Below, piece after piece: positions 4,051-42,252 of a DNA stretch of 64,000 nucleotides. Source of the stretch: Anaerobium acetethylicum (lineage in GTDB: Bacteria > Bacillota > Clostridia > Lachnospirales > Lachnospiraceae). A program made the translations under genes and the position numbers. The notes below the pieces were generated by a model, which saw only the letters and a list, made by a program, of their open reading frames with translations, was not told the origin of the DNA and did not search any database. The stretch is from contig NZ_FMKA01000001.1 of assembly GCF_900096945.1 (NCBI RefSeq), positions 62,001-126,000 on the forward strand, written 5' to 3'. The first letter of the stretch is position 1. Each line of letters starts with the position of its first letter.

Positions 4051-5865
4051 ATGGGCAGACTATTCAGAGAAACCATACTGTCATTTAAGCGTGCATCCAG
4101 GTCGATGCTGCTTTTTGAGGTTGTGTTCAAGGTCATAACAGGTCTGTGTATGATTCCGGGTCTGGTACTGCTGTTCAATGTCCTGCTGAAAGTGACGGGC
4201 TATTCCTATATCACAAAAAACAATGTCCTGAAAATCATCCGGAATCCTGCCCTTATCCTGTTTTTTGCGGCAGCGCTTCTGGTAGCCGCCTTCATATCCC
4301 TTTTAGAAATATCGATCCTTACCCTGTTTTTTGGCCACAATTATGATCCGGAAAAATCGCGCCTGAGAGGTCTTGTATTCCTGGGCTTCACGGAAATGCG
4401 GAGGCTCCTTGCACCAAAGAATGTCATCATGGTCCTCTACGTGATCTGTATCATCCCTATTATCAATTTCAGTCCGATTGTAAGATATATTTTCGGCAAC
4501 AGGGAAATCCCTAATTTCGTTTTCTATCATGTTATCAGGATAAATGGCTTTATGCCTGTTGTAGCTGTTTTTGCGGCTATACTTGGTGTTCTTGGAATAC
4601 AGATGATCTTCGTATTCTGCTATTTCTTTCTTGAGCATAAGAGCATACGGGAATCATTCAGATGCAGCAGGAAGCTTGTCAGGGGACGCGTGCTCAGGAC
4701 TGTAGGAAGCATTCTGGCATGTAATCTGTTTTTCATGGTTGTCTATCTGGCATTCTATCTGGTCGTTATTTTTTTAGTTGACACAGGAACAAATTATTTT
4801 TACGAAAAGAGAGTCGCCTATGCCGTTTTCCTGACAGCTTTCAATATGACAAACAAAGTTTTGATTGTCATATTGGGTATATTTGAAAGCATGGCTGTAA
4901 CGGGTGTTGTAGTGCAGCTCTATCTGCACTACAGTGGCAAGGGCAGGAAACCATGCCCTGATATCTGCCTGAAAAAGGAATTTGGCCGTGATGTGCTGAC
5001 CAGATCCGGCCGGGTTACGGTTGCAGTCCTTGCATTGGTGTTCCTGCTGACAGGTACGGGTATATTTTTCATCATAAACCAGGATTATTCCCTGCTTGAG
5101 AGCAAAAAAACAAGCATCACTGCCCACAGGGGATATTCGTCAAAGGCACCGGAAAATACAATGGCGGCGATTGAGAAAGCTGTTGATGCGTTGGCAGACT
5201 ATGCTGAAATTGATGTGAGGCAGACAAAAGATGGAATCCTTGTGGTTTTCCATGATGCCAGCCTCAAGCGCATAACGGGATTGAAAAAAAACGTATCGGA
5301 TCTGGATTATGCAAAGATTCTTCTTCTTGACATTGGCAGCTGGTTTTCAGGTGATTTTTCTGGTGAGCGCATACCGACACTAGAGGAAGTGATCCGGTAC
5401 AGCAAAGGGAAAATAAAGCTAAATATTGAACTGAAGAATTCTGCCGGAGACAAGAATCTGGAGGAGGCTGTTGTGAAGCTGATTGAAAAGCATCATTTTG
5501 AAGACGACTGTGTTGTATCTTCTTTCAGCTACAAGTCTCTGAAGAAAATCAAGGAACTGAATCCGGAAATTAAGACAGGATATATCCTGTCGGATGTATA
5601 TGGGAACTTTTATGATCTGAAAAAAGTGGATTTCTTCAGCATGAAGTATGTTTATGTTACTGAGAGGATCGTTACGGAGTTACACAAGCGTGGAAAGAAG
5701 ATCCACGTGTGGACTGTGAATGGAAGCACGATGATTGAGCGCCTGGCAATGATCGGAGTAGACAATATCATAACGGATTATCCGGTAAGAGCGAGAAACA
5801 TCATCTATGAATCCGATTTTCCGGAGTATACCACGAACTTTTTGAAGATGGTATTCAGCTACTGA
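4051..5865 (+). CDS. Membrane-anchored glycerophosphodiester phosphodiesterase
   Basis: A 604-residue protein. Residues 1 to about 350 hold some eight membrane segments, matching the GDPD N-terminal membrane domain of Gram-positive bacteria. From about residue 355 a GDPD TIM barrel begins with TAHRGYSSKAPENT (catalytic His-Arg, metal Glu), then EIDVRQTKDG and VVFHDASL with the second catalytic His, and ends with TVNGS and ITDYPVRA. It would hydrolyse glycerophosphodiesters or lipoteichoic-acid-derived polymers at the outer membrane face, releasing glycerol 3-phosphate. The ATG at 4051 follows GGGGGTG; an upstream GTG at 4012 lies inside a repeat. It is a single-gene unit ended by a hairpin. 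Confidence 0.9.
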   Translation: MGRLFRETILSFKRASRSMLLFEVVFKVITGLCMIPGLVLLFNVLLKVTGYSYITKNNVLKIIRNPALILFFAAALLVAAFISLLEISILTLFFGHNYDPEKSRLRGLVFLGFTEMRRLLAPKNVIMVLYVICIIPIINFSPIVRYIFGNREIPNFVFYHVIRINGFMPVVAVFAAILGVLGIQMIFVFCYFFLEHKSIRESFRCSRKLVRGRVLRTVGSILACNLFFMVVYLAFYLVVIFLVDTGTNYFYEKRVAYAVFLTAFNMTNKVLIVILGIFESMAVTGVVVQLYLHYSGKGRKPCPDICLKKEFGRDVLTRSGRVTVAVLALVFLLTGTGIFFIINQDYSLLESKKTSITAHRGYSSKAPENTMAAIEKAVDALADYAEIDVRQTKDGILVVFHDASLKRITGLKKNVSDLDYAKILLLDIGSWFSGDFSGERIPTLEEVIRYSKGKIKLNIELKNSAGDKNLEEAVVKLIEKHHFEDDCVVSSFSYKSLKKIKELNPEIKTGYILSDVYGNFYDLKKVDFFSMKYVYVTERIVTELHKRGKKIHVWTVNGSTMIERLAMIGVDNIITDYPVRARNIIYESDFPEYTTNFLKMVFSY

Positions 5866-5917
5866 TAGTAATCACTGGCATCAGAGAGTGTTGATCATAC
5901 CACCCAATCAGATACTA

Positions 5918-5951
5918 TAAGCCCAGGTTTTCATAAATAAACCTGGGCTTA
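5918..5951. terminator. Bidirectional hairpin between convergent genes
   Basis: A perfect 13-bp stem, TAAGCCCAGGTTT (5918-5930) with its complement at 5939-5951, lies between the stop of the glycerophosphodiesterase (+) and the stop of the GGDEF gene (-). Symmetry and position indicate a shared terminator, although the T run is short on both strands. Confidence 0.75.
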
Positions 5952-5986
5952 AGCATATCAATGGGAGTGTGGATCTGGTATTTTAT

Positions 5987-6604
5987 CTATTCACTATATT
6001 TTTTGAATAAATCATCAAGAGCCTCTCTTAGAAGAAAAGCTTCAGTTCTGTCATTTTCCTTGGAAAGACGCGAAAGCCTGTCGAGCTGGGTTTTAGTAAA
6101 GTAATTGGATTTCAAGACCATGCTTTCGATTTCCGAAAGGCAAATTCTATTTTTACCGGATTTTTTAGCCCGAAAAAGAGCGCTGTCTGCGACTCTGAAA
6201 AGTTCAATAACATTTTTGGCATCTTTGGGATAGCTTGCAACGCCAAAACTCATTGTAAAATAGACACTTTCTGAAATTGGATCGCCGATTTCAAAAGTAT
6301 TGTCCGAAAGATAGCGCCTGATCTCTTCCAGTTCCATAAAGCTTCTTTCTGTACCTTTTTTTACGAGAAGCAAAGTGAATTCATCACCAGATCTGCTAAA
6401 CATATCGGTAGGCGACAAATTGTTGTTGAAGATTGAAACCAGTTTTTTAATAACTTCATCCCCAGTAGAAATGCCATGTGTTTTCGTTAACCCCTTCAAA
6501 TCATCAACATCTGCTATTACAAGACTGAAAGGTCCATCATTATTCAAAATCAATTCATTTATTTTAGAAATCAATTCATCTTTTGAAACAAGTAAATCGT
6601 TCAT
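5987..6604 (-). CDS. GGDEF-domain protein with C-terminal ribbon-helix-helix-like segment
   Basis: A 205-residue soluble protein. Residues about 25-160 form a GGDEF domain with ADVDDLKGL in place of the usual metal/nucleotide strand and RSGDEF at residues 71-76, so the first Gly of the signature is Ser. No RxxD inhibitory site precedes it. After it, residues about 165-205 read FTKTQLDRLSRLSKE...FLLREALDDLF, resembling a ribbon-helix-helix DNA-binding unit rather than a sensor. There is no membrane segment or PAS/GAF domain. The ATG at 6604 is preferred because GGAGG lies 5 bases before it; the upstream ATG at 6616 overlaps that site. Diguanylate cyclase activity is plausible but unproven. Confidence 0.85.
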   Translation of the reverse strand: MNDLLVSKDELISKINELILNNDGPFSLVIADVDDLKGLTKTHGISTGDEVIKKLVSIFNNNLSPTDMFSRSGDEFTLLLVKKGTERSFMELEEIRRYLSDNTFEIGDPISESVYFTMSFGVASYPKDAKNVIELFRVADSALFRAKKSGKNRICLSEIESMVLKSNYFTKTQLDRLSRLSKENDRTEAFLLREALDDLFKKYSE

Positions 6605-6699
6605 TATAACCTCCATATATAGGGCTGAATATTATCATATGATGTTTGGAAACAATGTTATCCAGGATAATTTTACATCTTTATCAGCAAGCCCATTTT

Positions 6700-6728
6700 A
6701 TAGTAGCATCATTAAATATAGTCGTCAA
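6700..6728 (-). promoter_or_regulatory. Probable sigma-A promoter of the GGDEF gene
   Basis: On the minus strand TTGACG (6728-6723) is followed after 17 bases by TACTAT (6705-6700), about 95 bases before the start codon. The -35 matches 5 of 6 and the -10 matches 4 of 6 consensus bases. Confidence 0.45.
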
Positions 6729-6821
6729 TATATAAGGAATGGCAAAAAAAATAATTGTTAATAATTGTTCGAAATCCTCCTGAAAATGAAGTGTAATACA
6801 GGATGGCAGATTGATATGCGC

Positions 6822-6847
6822 ACATATATATGTTGACATATATATGT
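6822..6847. promoter_or_regulatory. Tandem 12-bp palindromes overlapping a TTGACA box
   Basis: ACATATATATGT occurs twice (6822-6833 and 6836-6847), each copy being a palindrome, separated by TG. The junction contains TTGACA (6833-6838), a candidate -35 element upstream of the riboswitch leader; the -10 candidate 17 bases on (TAAGGT) is weak. The arrangement suits an operator for a dimeric repressor, but AT-rich chance palindromes are possible. Confidence 0.35.
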
Positions 6848-6890
6848 CAAAATGTTAAGGTTAATGTAAATCATGGTAAAAAATAACATA

Positions 6891-7019
6891 TTAATGCTGA
6901 ATCATTTTGAACGGGAGAATCAATTTTTTGGGGTGAATCTTGTAAGAATTATAAGTAGGGTTAATTTCTCGTACCCGAATCCGTCAGTTAATCTCGTAAG
7001 CATCTAAGAGAAGTTTTTA
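6891..7019 (+). promoter_or_regulatory. c-di-AMP riboswitch (ydaO-yuaA motif)
   Basis: The leader of the abl operon carries the hallmarks of the ydaO/yuaA aptamer: GGGGTGAATC around 6930-6939, then GGGTT (6958-6962), CCCGAATCCGTCAG at 6974-6987 and CTCGTAAGC at 6993-7001. TTAATGCT at 6891-6898 can pair with AGCAT at 6999-7003 as the closing P1 helix. AGAGAAGT at 7007-7014 is exactly complementary to ACTTCTCT at 7075-7082 in the loop of the following terminator, giving a plausible antiterminator. Known members of this class switch genes off when c-di-AMP is high and control osmolyte and potassium genes, which fits the downstream genes. Confidence 0.88.
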
Positions 7020-7055
7020 CATATGGCTCCATCAATATTTAAATATGTGAACAAT

Positions 7056-7104
7056 AAGGCATAATAAGCTGCGGACTTCTCTGGGGCTTATTATGCCTTT
7101 TTTT
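7056..7104 (+). terminator. Expression-platform terminator of the c-di-AMP riboswitch
   Basis: AAGGCATAATAAGC (7056-7069) pairs perfectly with GCTTATTATGCCTT (7086-7099) and runs into seven T. It lies between the aptamer and ablA, 124 bases before the start codon. Its 16-base loop contains the octamer complementary to the sequence just after the aptamer, as expected for ligand-controlled termination. Confidence 0.88.
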
Positions 7105-7227
7105 GTTATTTTGCAGGCTTGGTTTTGGTAAAACATGTTTTGTTTTGGGAATCATCAGATTGATTGGGAGTTAGGAGGAATATTGGGAATACAGGAAACT
7201 ATAAATATTATTTAGGAGGAAATTGCG

Positions 7228-8499
7228 ATGAAGAGATCTTACAAGGAAATATCTTTATGGAAAGATATAGCAGAGGAACAGTGGAACAGCTGGGAGTGGC
7301 AGATTACAAACAGTGTTACCACAGTAGAGGAACTGGAAAAGGTAGTCAACCTTACAGATGAAGAAAAGTACGGGGCAGCAGCCAGCCTAAAAAAACTGAA
7401 GATGGCAATCACTCCATATTACACGACCCTGATTGATCCTGAAAATCACAATTGTCCAATCAGAATGCAGGCAATTCCAACGATACATGAAACAGCAGTT
7501 TCAGAATATGACAGCAGCGATCCGTTACATGAAACTTTAGATTCACCGCTTCCGGGATTGACACATCGATATCCCGACAGAGTGCTTCTCCTTATTACAG
7601 AGCAGTGTTCCATGTACTGCCGGCATTGTACAAGAAGAAGATTTGCGGGACAGGAAGATGGCTACATGTCAAGAAAAATGATCCTTAAGGCTATCAAGTA
7701 TATAAAGGAACATAACGAAGTAAGGGATGTGCTGATATCGGGTGGTGATGCATTGTGCGTGTCGGATGAAAAGCTCGAATTTATACTGAAGAATCTCAGG
7801 GCAATCAAGCATGTTGAAGTGATCAGGATTGGAACAAGGGTACCGGTTGTTATGCCGCAAAGAATAACTGAGAATCTGTGCAGTATGCTCAAAAAATACC
7901 ATCCGGTATGGATAAATACGCATTTTAATCATCCGTATGAAATTACAGAAGAGTCCACGAAGGCATGCAGTATGCTGGCCGATGCCGGAATACCCTTGGG
8001 GAATCAATCTGTGCTGCTTAAAAACATAAACGACTGCCCTGGAATCATGAAAGCACTCGTCCAGAAACTTGTCATGAACAGGGTACGCCCTTATTATATT
8101 TATCAGTGTGATCTGTCGGAAGGAATTGAACATTTCAGGACTCCTGTGTCGGCGGGAATCGAAATCATTGAACTTTTACGCGGACATACATCGGGATTTG
8201 CAGTACCGACCTTTGTAATAGATGCTCCTGGCGGTGGAGGGAAAATCCCGGTTAATCCACAATATGTGATTTCCCAGTCGCCTGAGAAGGTGATACTAAG
8301 GAATTATGAAGGTGTTATATGTACATATACGGAAGCACCGGATAAAACCCATGAATGTAAAAACTGCGGAATTTGCGGTAAATATGAGACCGATGATTCT
8401 AAAGGCCTGGAACAGCTTTTGAAAAATGAACGAAATTGCCTGATACCTAGAAGTAATGTAAGGATGAAAAGGAGGAGAATGATTAATGGAAGCGCATAA
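7228..8499 (+). CDS. ablA: Lysine 2,3-aminomutase
   Basis: A 423-residue radical SAM enzyme of the KamA family that converts L-alpha-lysine to L-beta-lysine. The [4Fe-4S]/SAM cysteines are C127, C131 and C134 in EQCSMYCRHC. The PLP-site region DAPGGGGKIPV holds the Lys that binds pyridoxal phosphate and the Asp that contacts the substrate amine; YQCDLSEG supplies the second carboxylate. A C-terminal HECKNCGICG cluster matches the zinc site. Length is typical. The ATG at 7228 follows AGGAGG. It overlaps ablB by 14 bases, and the pair makes the osmolyte N-epsilon-acetyl-beta-lysine. The c-di-AMP riboswitch upstream links it to osmotic control. Confidence 0.94.
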   Translation: MKRSYKEISLWKDIAEEQWNSWEWQITNSVTTVEELEKVVNLTDEEKYGAAASLKKLKMAITPYYTTLIDPENHNCPIRMQAIPTIHETAVSEYDSSDPLHETLDSPLPGLTHRYPDRVLLLITEQCSMYCRHCTRRRFAGQEDGYMSRKMILKAIKYIKEHNEVRDVLISGGDALCVSDEKLEFILKNLRAIKHVEVIRIGTRVPVVMPQRITENLCSMLKKYHPVWINTHFNHPYEITEESTKACSMLADAGIPLGNQSVLLKNINDCPGIMKALVQKLVMNRVRPYYIYQCDLSEGIEHFRTPVSAGIEIIELLRGHTSGFAVPTFVIDAPGGGGKIPVNPQYVISQSPEKVILRNYEGVICTYTEAPDKTHECKNCGICGKYETDDSKGLEQLLKNERNCLIPRSNVRMKRRRMINGSA

Positions 8500-9343
8500 T
8501 GTCGAGCTGAACGAAGGATGTTGTAAAGTGAAGGGGGTGAAATTCTATCTGGATGAAACCAACAAGAGGGTTAAGATAGGCAGTCGTAAATCTGTTACGG
8601 TTAAAGATCTTGAGGCAATCATTAAATTTGCTTCAGAACATGGCGCCGGAAAAGTTTTGTGTAACTGCTTAAAGGATGAATTAGGAGTGTTTTATGATGC
8701 AGGGTTTATTTTGGAAGGTAAGATTGAAGGTTTTTTCAGGGGAGATAGTGCATACTGCATGTCGTGCTTCATATGTGATCAAAGAAAGCAGAATCATAAC
8801 CATGAGGATGAAAATGCGATTATAGGGAAATGTCTTGCGGTGAAGGGGACATACGAATATAATGAAAAGGATTTCAAGTATATGATCAGAGATGCTGGCG
8901 AACAGGATATCGATGATATAGTTGCGTTGTTTTCCGAAGTATTTTCAACCTATCCAACACCGGTTTATGATGAAGAATATATAAGGGATACTATGAATGG
9001 AAAAATACTATATAAAGTGGCAGTTTGTGATGGGAAGATCATCGGAATGGCTTCTGCTGATTTGGACTGTAAAAATTTGAATGCGGAGATAACAGACTGT
9101 GCAACGCATCCTGAATTCAGAGGGAAAGGGATATTATCAAATATTATATATTTCCTGGAACAGGATTTGCGCAGAAAAGGATATATTACTTTGTACAGTC
9201 TTGCGAGAGCAGTGAATCCTGGGGTGAATATTGCATTAAGCAAGCATGATTATAAGTTTAAGGGCAGAATGGTAAATAACTGTAATATTTGTGGTTCGTT
9301 TGAAGATATGAATATCTGGGTAAAGGGGTTGAAAACGGTCTGA
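8486..9343 (+). CDS. ablB: Putative beta-lysine N-acetyltransferase
   Basis: A 285-residue protein: an N-terminal half of about 125 residues typical of AblB (YLDETNKRVKIG, then GAGKVLCNC and GFFRGDSAYCMSCF), followed by a GNAT domain with the acetyl-CoA loop around HPEFRGKGILSNII. It is expected to acetylate the epsilon amino group of beta-lysine made by AblA. The ATG at 8486 follows GGAGGAGA and lies inside the end of ablA, so translation is probably coupled. The stop TGA at 9341-9343 overlaps an ATG (TGATG) that would couple a third gene. Confidence 0.9.
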   Translation: MEAHNVELNEGCCKVKGVKFYLDETNKRVKIGSRKSVTVKDLEAIIKFASEHGAGKVLCNCLKDELGVFYDAGFILEGKIEGFFRGDSAYCMSCFICDQRKQNHNHEDENAIIGKCLAVKGTYEYNEKDFKYMIRDAGEQDIDDIVALFSEVFSTYPTPVYDEEYIRDTMNGKILYKVAVCDGKIIGMASADLDCKNLNAEITDCATHPEFRGKGILSNIIYFLEQDLRRKGYITLYSLARAVNPGVNIALSKHDYKFKGRMVNNCNICGSFEDMNIWVKGLKTV

Positions 9344-9402
9344 TGAAATACAACTATGTTACAGACTATAAAGAAAATGAAACATTGCGTAAATCCTTAT
9401 AG
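9343..9402 (+). other. Displaced 5' end of the downstream GNAT gene (19 codons before an in-frame stop)
   Basis: ATG at 9343 overlaps the ablB stop codon (TGATG) and encodes MKYNYVTDYKENETLRKSL before TAG at 9400-9402. Related GNAT proteins continue from this type of N-terminus straight into a LA.NTFG..FE.WYQNGFW segment, which here is found one frame over, starting SALANNTFG at 9401. Removing one base (the T at 9400) would join the two. This indicates a frameshift mutation, a sequencing error or a slippage event. Confidence 0.7.
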
Positions 9403-10213
9403 CGCACTTGCAAATAACACCTTCGGAATAAGCTTTGAAGAATGGTATCAGAATGGATTTTGGCCCGCATGCCATATACCCTGCTCACTGGCTGACGGAG
9501 ACAGGATTGTTGCGAATGTATCTGTTAACCGGATGGAATTTGATCGGGATGGATGCAGAAAGCATTACATTCAGCTTGGAACGGTAATGACCGATAAAGA
9601 ATACCGTGGCCAGGGTCTCAGCCGTTATCTGATTGAGAGGGTAATCAGCGAATGGAAGGATCAATCGGATGGCATCTATCTATTTGCCAATGACAGGGTG
9701 CTTGATTTTTATCCGAGGTTTGGTTTTGGCAGAAGCAGCGAGTACTGTTATAGCAAGGCTGTCTGTACAGAAAACAAAAAAAAGACAGTAGAACAGGTCG
9801 ATATGTCTGAAGAGAAGAACAGGGAAAAACTGTTCGAGGCAATCAAGACGAAAACAAGCAATGGCAGATTTGTCATGAATAATCCCGGGCTGCTTATGTT
9901 TTATCTGACAGGATTCATGAAGGAATCCGTTTATCGCCTGCCGGAAGACGGGGGTTATGCAGTCGCACAGATTAAAGATGGGAGACTGGTTGTCCATGAG
10001 ATAATAGGACAGGAAATAATTGATATCGACAGTGTGGCAAGTGCGTTCGGCAGCGGAATCAACCAGGTTGAACTGCGGTTCACCCCGTTTCATCAAGGCA
10101 GATATACAATGCAGAAATGGCATGAAGAGGATACAACGCTCTTTATTCAGGGAAAGGATTTAGAGGTCGTTGGAAGAGATGAAATGATGTTCCCGACTTT
10201 GTCGCATGCATAA
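9356..10213 (+). CDS. GNAT-family N-acetyltransferase (frameshifted at its 5' end)
   Basis: An open frame of 285 codons covers almost a full GNAT protein with a C-terminal extension. The acetyl-CoA loop lies in TDKEYRGQGLSRYLIERV around residues 82-99, preceded by RIVANVSVNRMEF; the C-terminal region resembles the sterol-carrier-like half of Eis/YitI-type acetyltransferases. The ATG at 9356 has no ribosome-binding site, and its first 15 codons do not resemble the family. The native start is probably ATG 9343, coupled to ablB, with a one-base insertion near 9400. If the frameshift is real, the gene is likely inactive or poorly expressed. The substrate may be related to the abl pathway, but this is a guess from position. 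Confidence 0.75.
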   Translation: MLQTIKKMKHCVNPYSALANNTFGISFEEWYQNGFWPACHIPCSLADGDRIVANVSVNRMEFDRDGCRKHYIQLGTVMTDKEYRGQGLSRYLIERVISEWKDQSDGIYLFANDRVLDFYPRFGFGRSSEYCYSKAVCTENKKKTVEQVDMSEEKNREKLFEAIKTKTSNGRFVMNNPGLLMFYLTGFMKESVYRLPEDGGYAVAQIKDGRLVVHEIIGQEIIDIDSVASAFGSGINQVELRFTPFHQGRYTMQKWHEEDTTLFIQGKDLEVVGRDEMMFPTLSHA

Positions 10214-42066: not shown

Positions 42067-42252
42067 ATGATACCAGGGTCAAAAGGTCATGTGCTTCATG
42101 CTTGCATGAAAAAACATGACTTTGGGACCCGCAAAAAATGAGAAAGTAGCCCGAATAGAGCGGATTTCGAATGTTTTAGGATTGTGGGAGCACAAAGTGC
42201 GGAACAATCCGTAGGTATCAGGGGGGAAAATACTTTTTGACCCCGACATCAT
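42067..42252. repeat. Dispersed palindromic element family B, full copy B2 (186 bp)
   Basis: The left end ATGATACCAGGGTCAAAAGG (42067-42086) matches the complement of the right end (…TTTTTGACCCCGACATCAT, ending 42252) at about 18 of 24 positions. Inside, GGTCATG/CATGACTTT forms a hairpin at 42083-42124 and GCACAAAGTGC another. Bases 42206-42252 recur at 22724-22770 with four differences. No coding frame. It fills most of the 355-base gap between the ABC operon and the GH30 gene. Confidence 0.75.

Follow-up and report, generated by a model that had tools for sequence, protein, structure and literature searches.

A predicted c-di-AMP OFF riboswitch before the ablA-ablB operon of Anaerobium acetethylicum and a divergent GGDEF gene beside it

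Does c-di-AMP govern the making of a compatible solute in Anaerobium acetethylicum, and by what device? The question is raised by the leader of an ablA-ablB operon in the 64,000-nucleotide stretch of DNA analysed here (the window). The leader very probably works as a c-di-AMP OFF riboswitch that controls, by transcription termination, an operon for the compatible solute N-epsilon-acetyl-beta-lysine.

The aptamer and the genes behind it

A sequence-only reading had placed a ydaO-yuaA riboswitch in the ablA-ablB leader and left it to a covariance-model search to confirm or dismiss this. The search returned a significant RF00379 match over the full length of the model (1–134 of 134). It is the sole c-di-AMP riboswitch that Rfam models find in the window, and the genome, 99% complete in 105 contigs, yielded one RF00379 match. 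The aptamer and the genes that follow it are:

6885–7017, + strand: c-di-AMP riboswitch aptamer (RF00379; 100.6 bits against a gathering score of 38, E 1e-22)
6920, + strand: C-to-U change; the remaining 85 of 86 aptamers have C here, and the Rfam structure leaves the position unpaired
6988, + strand: C-to-U change (CAGCUAA to CAGUUAA); here too the remaining 85 of 86 aptamers have C, and the position is unpaired in the Rfam structure
7214–7219, + strand: ribosome-binding site of ablA, AGGAGG, by direct reading
7228–8499, + strand: ablA, lysine 2,3-aminomutase (TIGR03820 lys_2_3_AblA, 624.9 bits, cut-off 525.4; PDB 2A5H, E 1e-175)
8486–9343, + strand: ablB, beta-lysine N-acetyltransferase, overlapping the end of ablA (TIGR03827 GNAT_ablB, 263.3 bits, cut-off 205.1)

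Both genes exceed their NCBIfam equivalog cut-offs, in agreement with the names first given to them, and the glutamate and arginine aminomutase models fall under their own cut-offs on 7228–8499. The AblA motifs YQCDLS and FVIDAPGGGG align with 2A5H, and we take their aspartates to be lysine-binding. The span originally assigned to the system, 6891–8499, takes in ablA and leaves out both ablB, which runs to 9343, and a promoter-like block at 6833–6860. A second GNAT-family gene lies directly after ablB (9356–10213, + strand; Pfam acetyltransferase matches, no NCBIfam match) and could be part of the operon. Elsewhere in the window, 42068–42220 (+ strand) matches the sRNA family Clostridiales-1 RNA (RF01699, 122.5 bits).

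Lysine 2,3-aminomutase also opens lysine fermentation, and the operon might on that account serve lysine catabolism and not osmoprotection, the riboswitch merely coupling it to growth state. We regard this as improbable: ablB directly follows ablA, the genome search turned up one AblA, and in related riboswitch-ablAB operons dapB is present, for lysine supply, at times together with a Na+ riboswitch. The Na+ aptamer RF03071 had no match up to E 1 in 5800–7300 of the window, and the leader is not a tandem logic gate.

The two C-to-U changes at otherwise fixed C positions of the c-di-AMP aptamer are new here. All other columns conserved at 90% or more in the 86-aptamer alignment are intact, and the exact 21-nt pattern containing the 6988 change occurs in one of 371 genomes of the class, namely that of the window. 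Both positions are unpaired in the Rfam structure and so possibly make tertiary contacts; judged from the alignment, the changes could weaken c-di-AMP binding. A U-G pairing at 6920 was considered and rejected, the Rfam alignment having 6920 unpaired. Our mapping of both positions onto a published contact list goes by way of a crystal RNA sequence and is provisional. So mapped, neither 6920 nor 6988 is in the ligand-contact list of a review table, in the part of the review available (PMC7288161); the list carries the doubtful label 3MUV, also given there as a c-di-GMP-I mutant.

The changes admit two other readings of the leader. One is a decaying or altered aptamer, with c-di-AMP binding weakened or abolished and the leader left as a mostly constitutive attenuator. 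Both changes are unique among the 86 aptamers and lie in unpaired columns, which speaks for it; against it stand the otherwise intact conserved columns, a score well above gathering, a pseudoknot and a tail-apex pairing that can still form (below), and the contact list as mapped above. We hold decay to be unlikely, though the likeliest of the alternatives. The other is a shift of specificity to a different dinucleotide, for example the product of the neighbouring GGDEF protein, whose gene begins at a distance of 268 bp from the aptamer. Each of the two changes is a transition at a site fixed in the rest of the alignment, but every other GGDEF-adjacent aptamer in the alignment keeps C at both, and the 21-nt variant pattern has no second occurrence among the 371 genomes of the class. 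Such a variant riboswitch is highly improbable.

Competing pairings at the terminator

Taken as a c-di-AMP riboswitch, the leader has an expression platform joined to the aptamer, a terminator with tail-apex pairing, composed of the following elements:

6963–6970, + strand: pseudoknot 5' strand AAUUUCUC, in a hairpin loop
7007–7015, + strand: switching strand (pseudoknot 3' strand 7008–7015, GAGAAGUU; apex complement 7007–7014)
7056–7104, + strand: intrinsic terminator (stem 7056–7070 with 7085–7099, T tract to 7104)
7075–7082, + strand: terminator apex ACUUCUCU (also given as ACTTCTCT), complementary to the switching strand

The terminator fold (7052–7106) has a free energy of -27.9 kcal/mol (z -7.7), equalled by 0 of 200 shuffles. 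The octamer AGAGAAGU (also given as AGAGAAGT) at 7007–7014 is the perfect reverse complement of the apex; shuffling the apex 5000 times gave at least eight Watson-Crick tail-apex pairs twice, and shuffling the tail 5000 times never did. Complementarity of this octamer to the terminator loop had been noted from the sequence and stands. Its placement directly after the aptamer was incomplete, as most of it coincides with the pseudoknot 3' strand of the aptamer itself.

That pseudoknot (6963–6970 with 7008–7015) has 8 bp and -7.7 kcal/mol, and 25 of 85 aptamers, the window's included, have one as weak or weaker. Its register is shifted relative to the Clostridium loci. A broken pseudoknot, suggested by mismatches in a register chosen by eye, was rejected, since the shifted register yields eight pairs, within the normal range. 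The 108-nt ydaO crystal RNA, as printed in the available part of PMC5393176, likewise has loop-to-tail complementarity, judged by eye, and the loop-tail pairing of the window corresponds to the class pseudoknot.

Bases of the octamer thus pair with both the apex and the aptamer loop, so that two pairings compete for one strand. Pairing of tail and apex leaves the basal stem (7056–7070/7085–7099) untouched, and the 8-bp duplex so formed (-9.1 kcal/mol) is much weaker than the full terminator hairpin (-27.4 kcal/mol). Exclusion would therefore have to be kinetic or steric and not thermodynamic.

The sequence of events that we infer comprises ligand binding, the OFF direction, kinetic capture and the osmolyte output. 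At high c-di-AMP, with no osmotic or K+ stress, the ligand would hold the aptamer and the pseudoknot 6963–6970/7008–7015 together; with the switching strand occupied, the terminator at 7056–7104 would form. When c-di-AMP falls, the switching strand would be freed and would capture the apex (7075–7082) as it emerges from the polymerase. The hairpin would then nucleate too late, and ablAB would be transcribed.

Tail-apex pairing was examined across the class in 76 aptamers, 67 from genome searches and nine more (L009–L013, two in L027, L056 and L155). The P1 end was anchored by pattern in 75 of these; L006 could not be anchored. A downstream hairpin with a T run was located in 56 of the 75 loci, some of them probably not true terminators, and 19 were without one. 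Over the 56 loci the duplex of each tail with its own apex averaged -7.92 kcal/mol vs -6.19 (sd 0.26) for permuted partners, a value reached by 0 of 5000 permutations; that of the window was -12.6 kcal/mol in this comparison. With one locus per family label (28 labels, those of L009–L013, L027 and L056 being our own assignment), p was below 0.01 in 200 of 200 random draws. Individually, 23 of the 56 loci reached p 0.05 against shuffled apexes and 33 missed it. Because duplex energies depend on G+C, composition could contribute to the signal. The apexes of Clostridium luticellarii and C. weizhouense are identical to that of the window, and their tail, AGGGAAGU, pairs with this apex through one G-U.

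On average across the class, then, the tail-apex match is locus-specific; this result was computed, as were family membership, genes, terminator and both competing pairings in the window. It spells out what the switching strand of the class is: the pseudoknot 3' strand, set against the terminator apex. We claim no priority for tail-apex pairing in c-di-AMP riboswitches.

Known systems and related loci

The link from c-di-AMP to ablA is already known. According to the accessible portion of White et al. 2022 (PMC9337991), a Na+-I/c-di-AMP riboswitch tandem precedes ablA in Dehalobacter sp. CF, and c-di-AMP terminates its transcription in vitro, with read-through under 5%. This tandem and the B. 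thuringiensis kdp OFF switch (PMC6488665, available in part) are precedents for the present reading. The Dehalobacter leader shares with the window its aptamer class, gene, proposed osmolyte, intrinsic terminator and a proposed contest between the P1/pseudoknot strand and the terminator. It differs in having a Na+ aptamer, whereas the window has the c-di-AMP half only, and in the pairing partner, described there as the left shoulder of the stem and found here to be the terminator apex. In the window ablB follows ablA; the sections of PMC9337991 available to us do not mention ablB for Dehalobacter. Two other OFF switches, B. subtilis ydaO/kimA (PMC9960051, in part) and B. thuringiensis kdpFABC (PMC6488665, in part), share aptamer class and a termination-based design but serve K+ uptake and not osmolyte synthesis. 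Na+-I/c-di-AMP tandems number 5 in the table and six in the text of a review (PMC9481103, as far as available). Literature searches on c-di-AMP with acetyl-beta-lysine or ablA gave nothing relevant by title and abstract start beyond White et al. The kind of riboswitch to which that of the window belongs has been tested before, in Dehalobacter.

AblA relatives (the best 80 of 587) were scanned with Rfam at gathering scores. RF00379 lies upstream of the ablA operon in five of these 80, ranks 2 to 6: C. weizhouense (L009), C. luticellarii (L010), Pseudobacteroides (L011) and two MAGs (L012, L013). The top AblA match of the 80, Lacrimispora amygdalina (L008, 81%), has ablAB with no RF00379 match in 7.3 kb, which counts against the present reading; there ablAB sits behind ABC transporter-like genes (by eye) with a short leader free of riboswitch matches (L008:2900–3001). 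Riboswitches lie elsewhere in the AblA locus in L027 (two) and L056 (one), also among the best 80. The other 72 of the 80 loci had none at gathering scores, an absence that is not proven for several loci because contig ends cut off the upstream part. The AblA locus of an uncultured Lachnospiraceae bacterium contains a lysine riboswitch (RF00168; L048:153–328, + strand), some 2.7 kb ahead of the AblA match.

The tie between c-di-AMP and acetyl-beta-lysine genes drawn in the sequence-only reading gains support from the AblA and AblB assignments, from the one gene with a diadenylate cyclase domain (PF02457) found in the genome, and from RF00379 before five of the six top AblA relatives (of the best 80 of 587). 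In L011 a Na+ aptamer precedes the c-di-AMP aptamer; L009, L010, L012 and L013, like the window, have the single-input form before their ablA operons. This indicates that c-di-AMP control of acetyl-beta-lysine synthesis extends beyond the Na+ tandem.

Within the window's own family RF00379 was found in just 7 of 299 sampled genomes, a rarity that counts towards decay of the aptamer. The other six matches precede other genes: a Na+/H+ exchanger family gene (L004), a Na+/H+ antiporter family gene (L005) and an ABC ATPase with CBS domains (L006), all by Pfam, and, by eye, exchanger-like genes (L002, L007) and a solute-binding protein (L003).

The GGDEF-RHH neighbour and the shared promoter block

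A c-di-AMP riboswitch, dapB-ablA-ablB and a GGDEF gene occur together in Pseudobacteroides cellulosolvens (L011) and G542 (L154). These loci resemble the window in riboswitch class, osmolyte genes and an adjacent orthologue (67% and 76% identity) of its divergent GGDEF gene. They differ in carrying dapB, which the operon of the window lacks, and in L011 the GGDEF gene is co-directional. In G383 (L155:1–12000), a GGDEF-RHH gene, a c-di-AMP riboswitch and dapB are present, with no ablA within the 12 kb read; this riboswitch may control dapB without ablA. In the window the upstream elements are:

5987–6616, - strand: divergent gene for a 209-aa GGDEF protein (PF00990, 75 bits) with a C-terminal ribbon-helix-helix-like segment, candidate second regulator
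6822–6833, no strand: palindrome ACATATATATGT, copy 1, candidate operator
6836–6847, no strand: second copy of the palindrome ACATATATATGT, sharing bases with the -35-like hexamer and the spacer
6833–6860, + strand: promoter-like block (TTGACA, 17-nt spacer, extended -10-like TGTTAAGG(T))

The signature of the GGDEF protein reads SGDEF (vs GG[DE]EF), and its T44 is N in at least 90% of 12 aligned orthologues. Its C-terminus matches PF20605 Antitox_RHH at 23.7 bits, under the 27.2-bit gathering threshold; at E up to 0.001, PF20605 is matched by 10 of the 12 orthologues and RHH_3 by 8. Three of the 12 also have a match to PF24898, the model for the degenerate GGDEF domain that GdpP, a c-di-AMP phosphodiesterase, carries. 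An AlphaFold2 model from a two-sequence alignment had a mean pLDDT of 41.7 and was left unused. Literature searches on GGDEF with ribbon-helix-helix in osmo-regulation or Clostridia gave, by title and abstract start, nothing related.

GGDEF-RHH matches were found at E up to 1e-30 in 6 of 291 genomes of the class and also in Pseudobacteroides. With the limit at E 1e-35, G542's family had matches in 19 of 194 genomes and G383's family in 3 of 14; G542 and G383 fall in two of these counts. The distinct orthologue genomes (about 63% identity or more) number 24: the window's, the 19, the 3 and Pseudobacteroides, with G504 (49%), G381 (33%) and G300 (37%) left out. A c-di-AMP riboswitch lies within 500 bp of the orthologue in 14 of the 24 (the window, G542 (L093/L149), L160–L167, L011, L150, L179 and L180), or in 12 of 22 without the window and Pseudobacteroides, both found through this locus type. 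The gene is divergent from the riboswitch in ten and co-directional in four.

Ten genomes had no c-di-AMP riboswitch nearby (1.5 kb flanks at gathering scores, the upstream flank of L176 being shortened). A Na+ riboswitch precedes an NhaA-type antiporter gene in L172, L174 and L175, and a ClC gene lies just upstream of the GGDEF-RHH gene in L168 and L170–L175 (L175 by Pfam, the rest by eye in both cases). The L175 ClC protein ends in a TrkA_C domain (Pfam), a type listed as c-di-AMP receptor in KtrA (PMC7288161, in the part available). Other genes lie downstream of the GGDEF-RHH gene in L170, L171 and L173, L176 has an amino acid permease gene, and the GGDEF-RHH copy is broken in L177/L178. 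In G1041 (L169:2240–2420), a promoter block, the tail-like sequence GTTGAAGATAAG and a terminator with apex ACTTCTCT stand ahead of ablB in a leader with no RF00379 match at gathering score. This apparent natural loss indicates that aptamer loss does happen, a further point for decay in the window.

The two ACATATATATGT palindromes lie 14 bp apart, and even with one mismatch allowed the 64-kb window has no further copy; this fits an RHH operator. A consensus promoter scan gave 4 sites, where chance alone predicts 4.1, and the conserved block at 6833–6860 was not among them. Within 300 bases upstream of the riboswitch, TTGACATATATATGTTAAAATGATATGG recurs with 0 to 6 mismatches of 28 in the ten divergent-GGDEF loci (3 in the window), and the block is also present in C. 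luticellarii (L010, 3 of 28) and G625 (L096, 7 of 28); for each of these loci 0 of 100 Markov shuffles were as good. C. weizhouense (L009) follows with 9 of 28 mismatches (0 of 100 shuffles as good), and L113 has 8 (1 of 100). At the four co-directional GGDEF loci the block is missing upstream of the riboswitch (11 mismatches or more). At these four (L011, L155, L179 and L180) a weaker form of the block, 18 nt long and with 2 to 4 mismatches, stands before the GGDEF gene instead of the riboswitch.

The shared palindromic block, as a pattern in the DNA, suggests promoter-level control. An operator tied strictly to the GGDEF gene was rejected as not clean: C. luticellarii and G625 have the block without GGDEF-RHH, and the genomes of C. 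luticellarii, G625 and C. weizhouense had no GGDEF-RHH match at E up to 1e-20. The block without the protein in C. luticellarii and G625 keeps the idea of an RHH operator tentative, somewhat short of an even chance. The same guarded weight attaches to a two-layer control in which a nucleotide-responsive GGDEF-RHH factor would act on the tandem ACATATATATGT in the ablAB promoter and the c-di-AMP riboswitch at the terminator.

Riboswitches for Na+ or c-di-AMP, the ablAB pair, and genes for ClC proteins or Na+/H+ antiporters are recurrent neighbours of the GGDEF-RHH gene, whose product might act in the salt response as a second regulator. This link is the more novel part of the locus and the one most worth following. 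If two-layer control is true, the arrangement would be a conserved osmoadaptation module of Clostridia, a class assignment that is ours, and would bring c-di-AMP and a GGDEF-fold regulator together on a single osmolyte operon.
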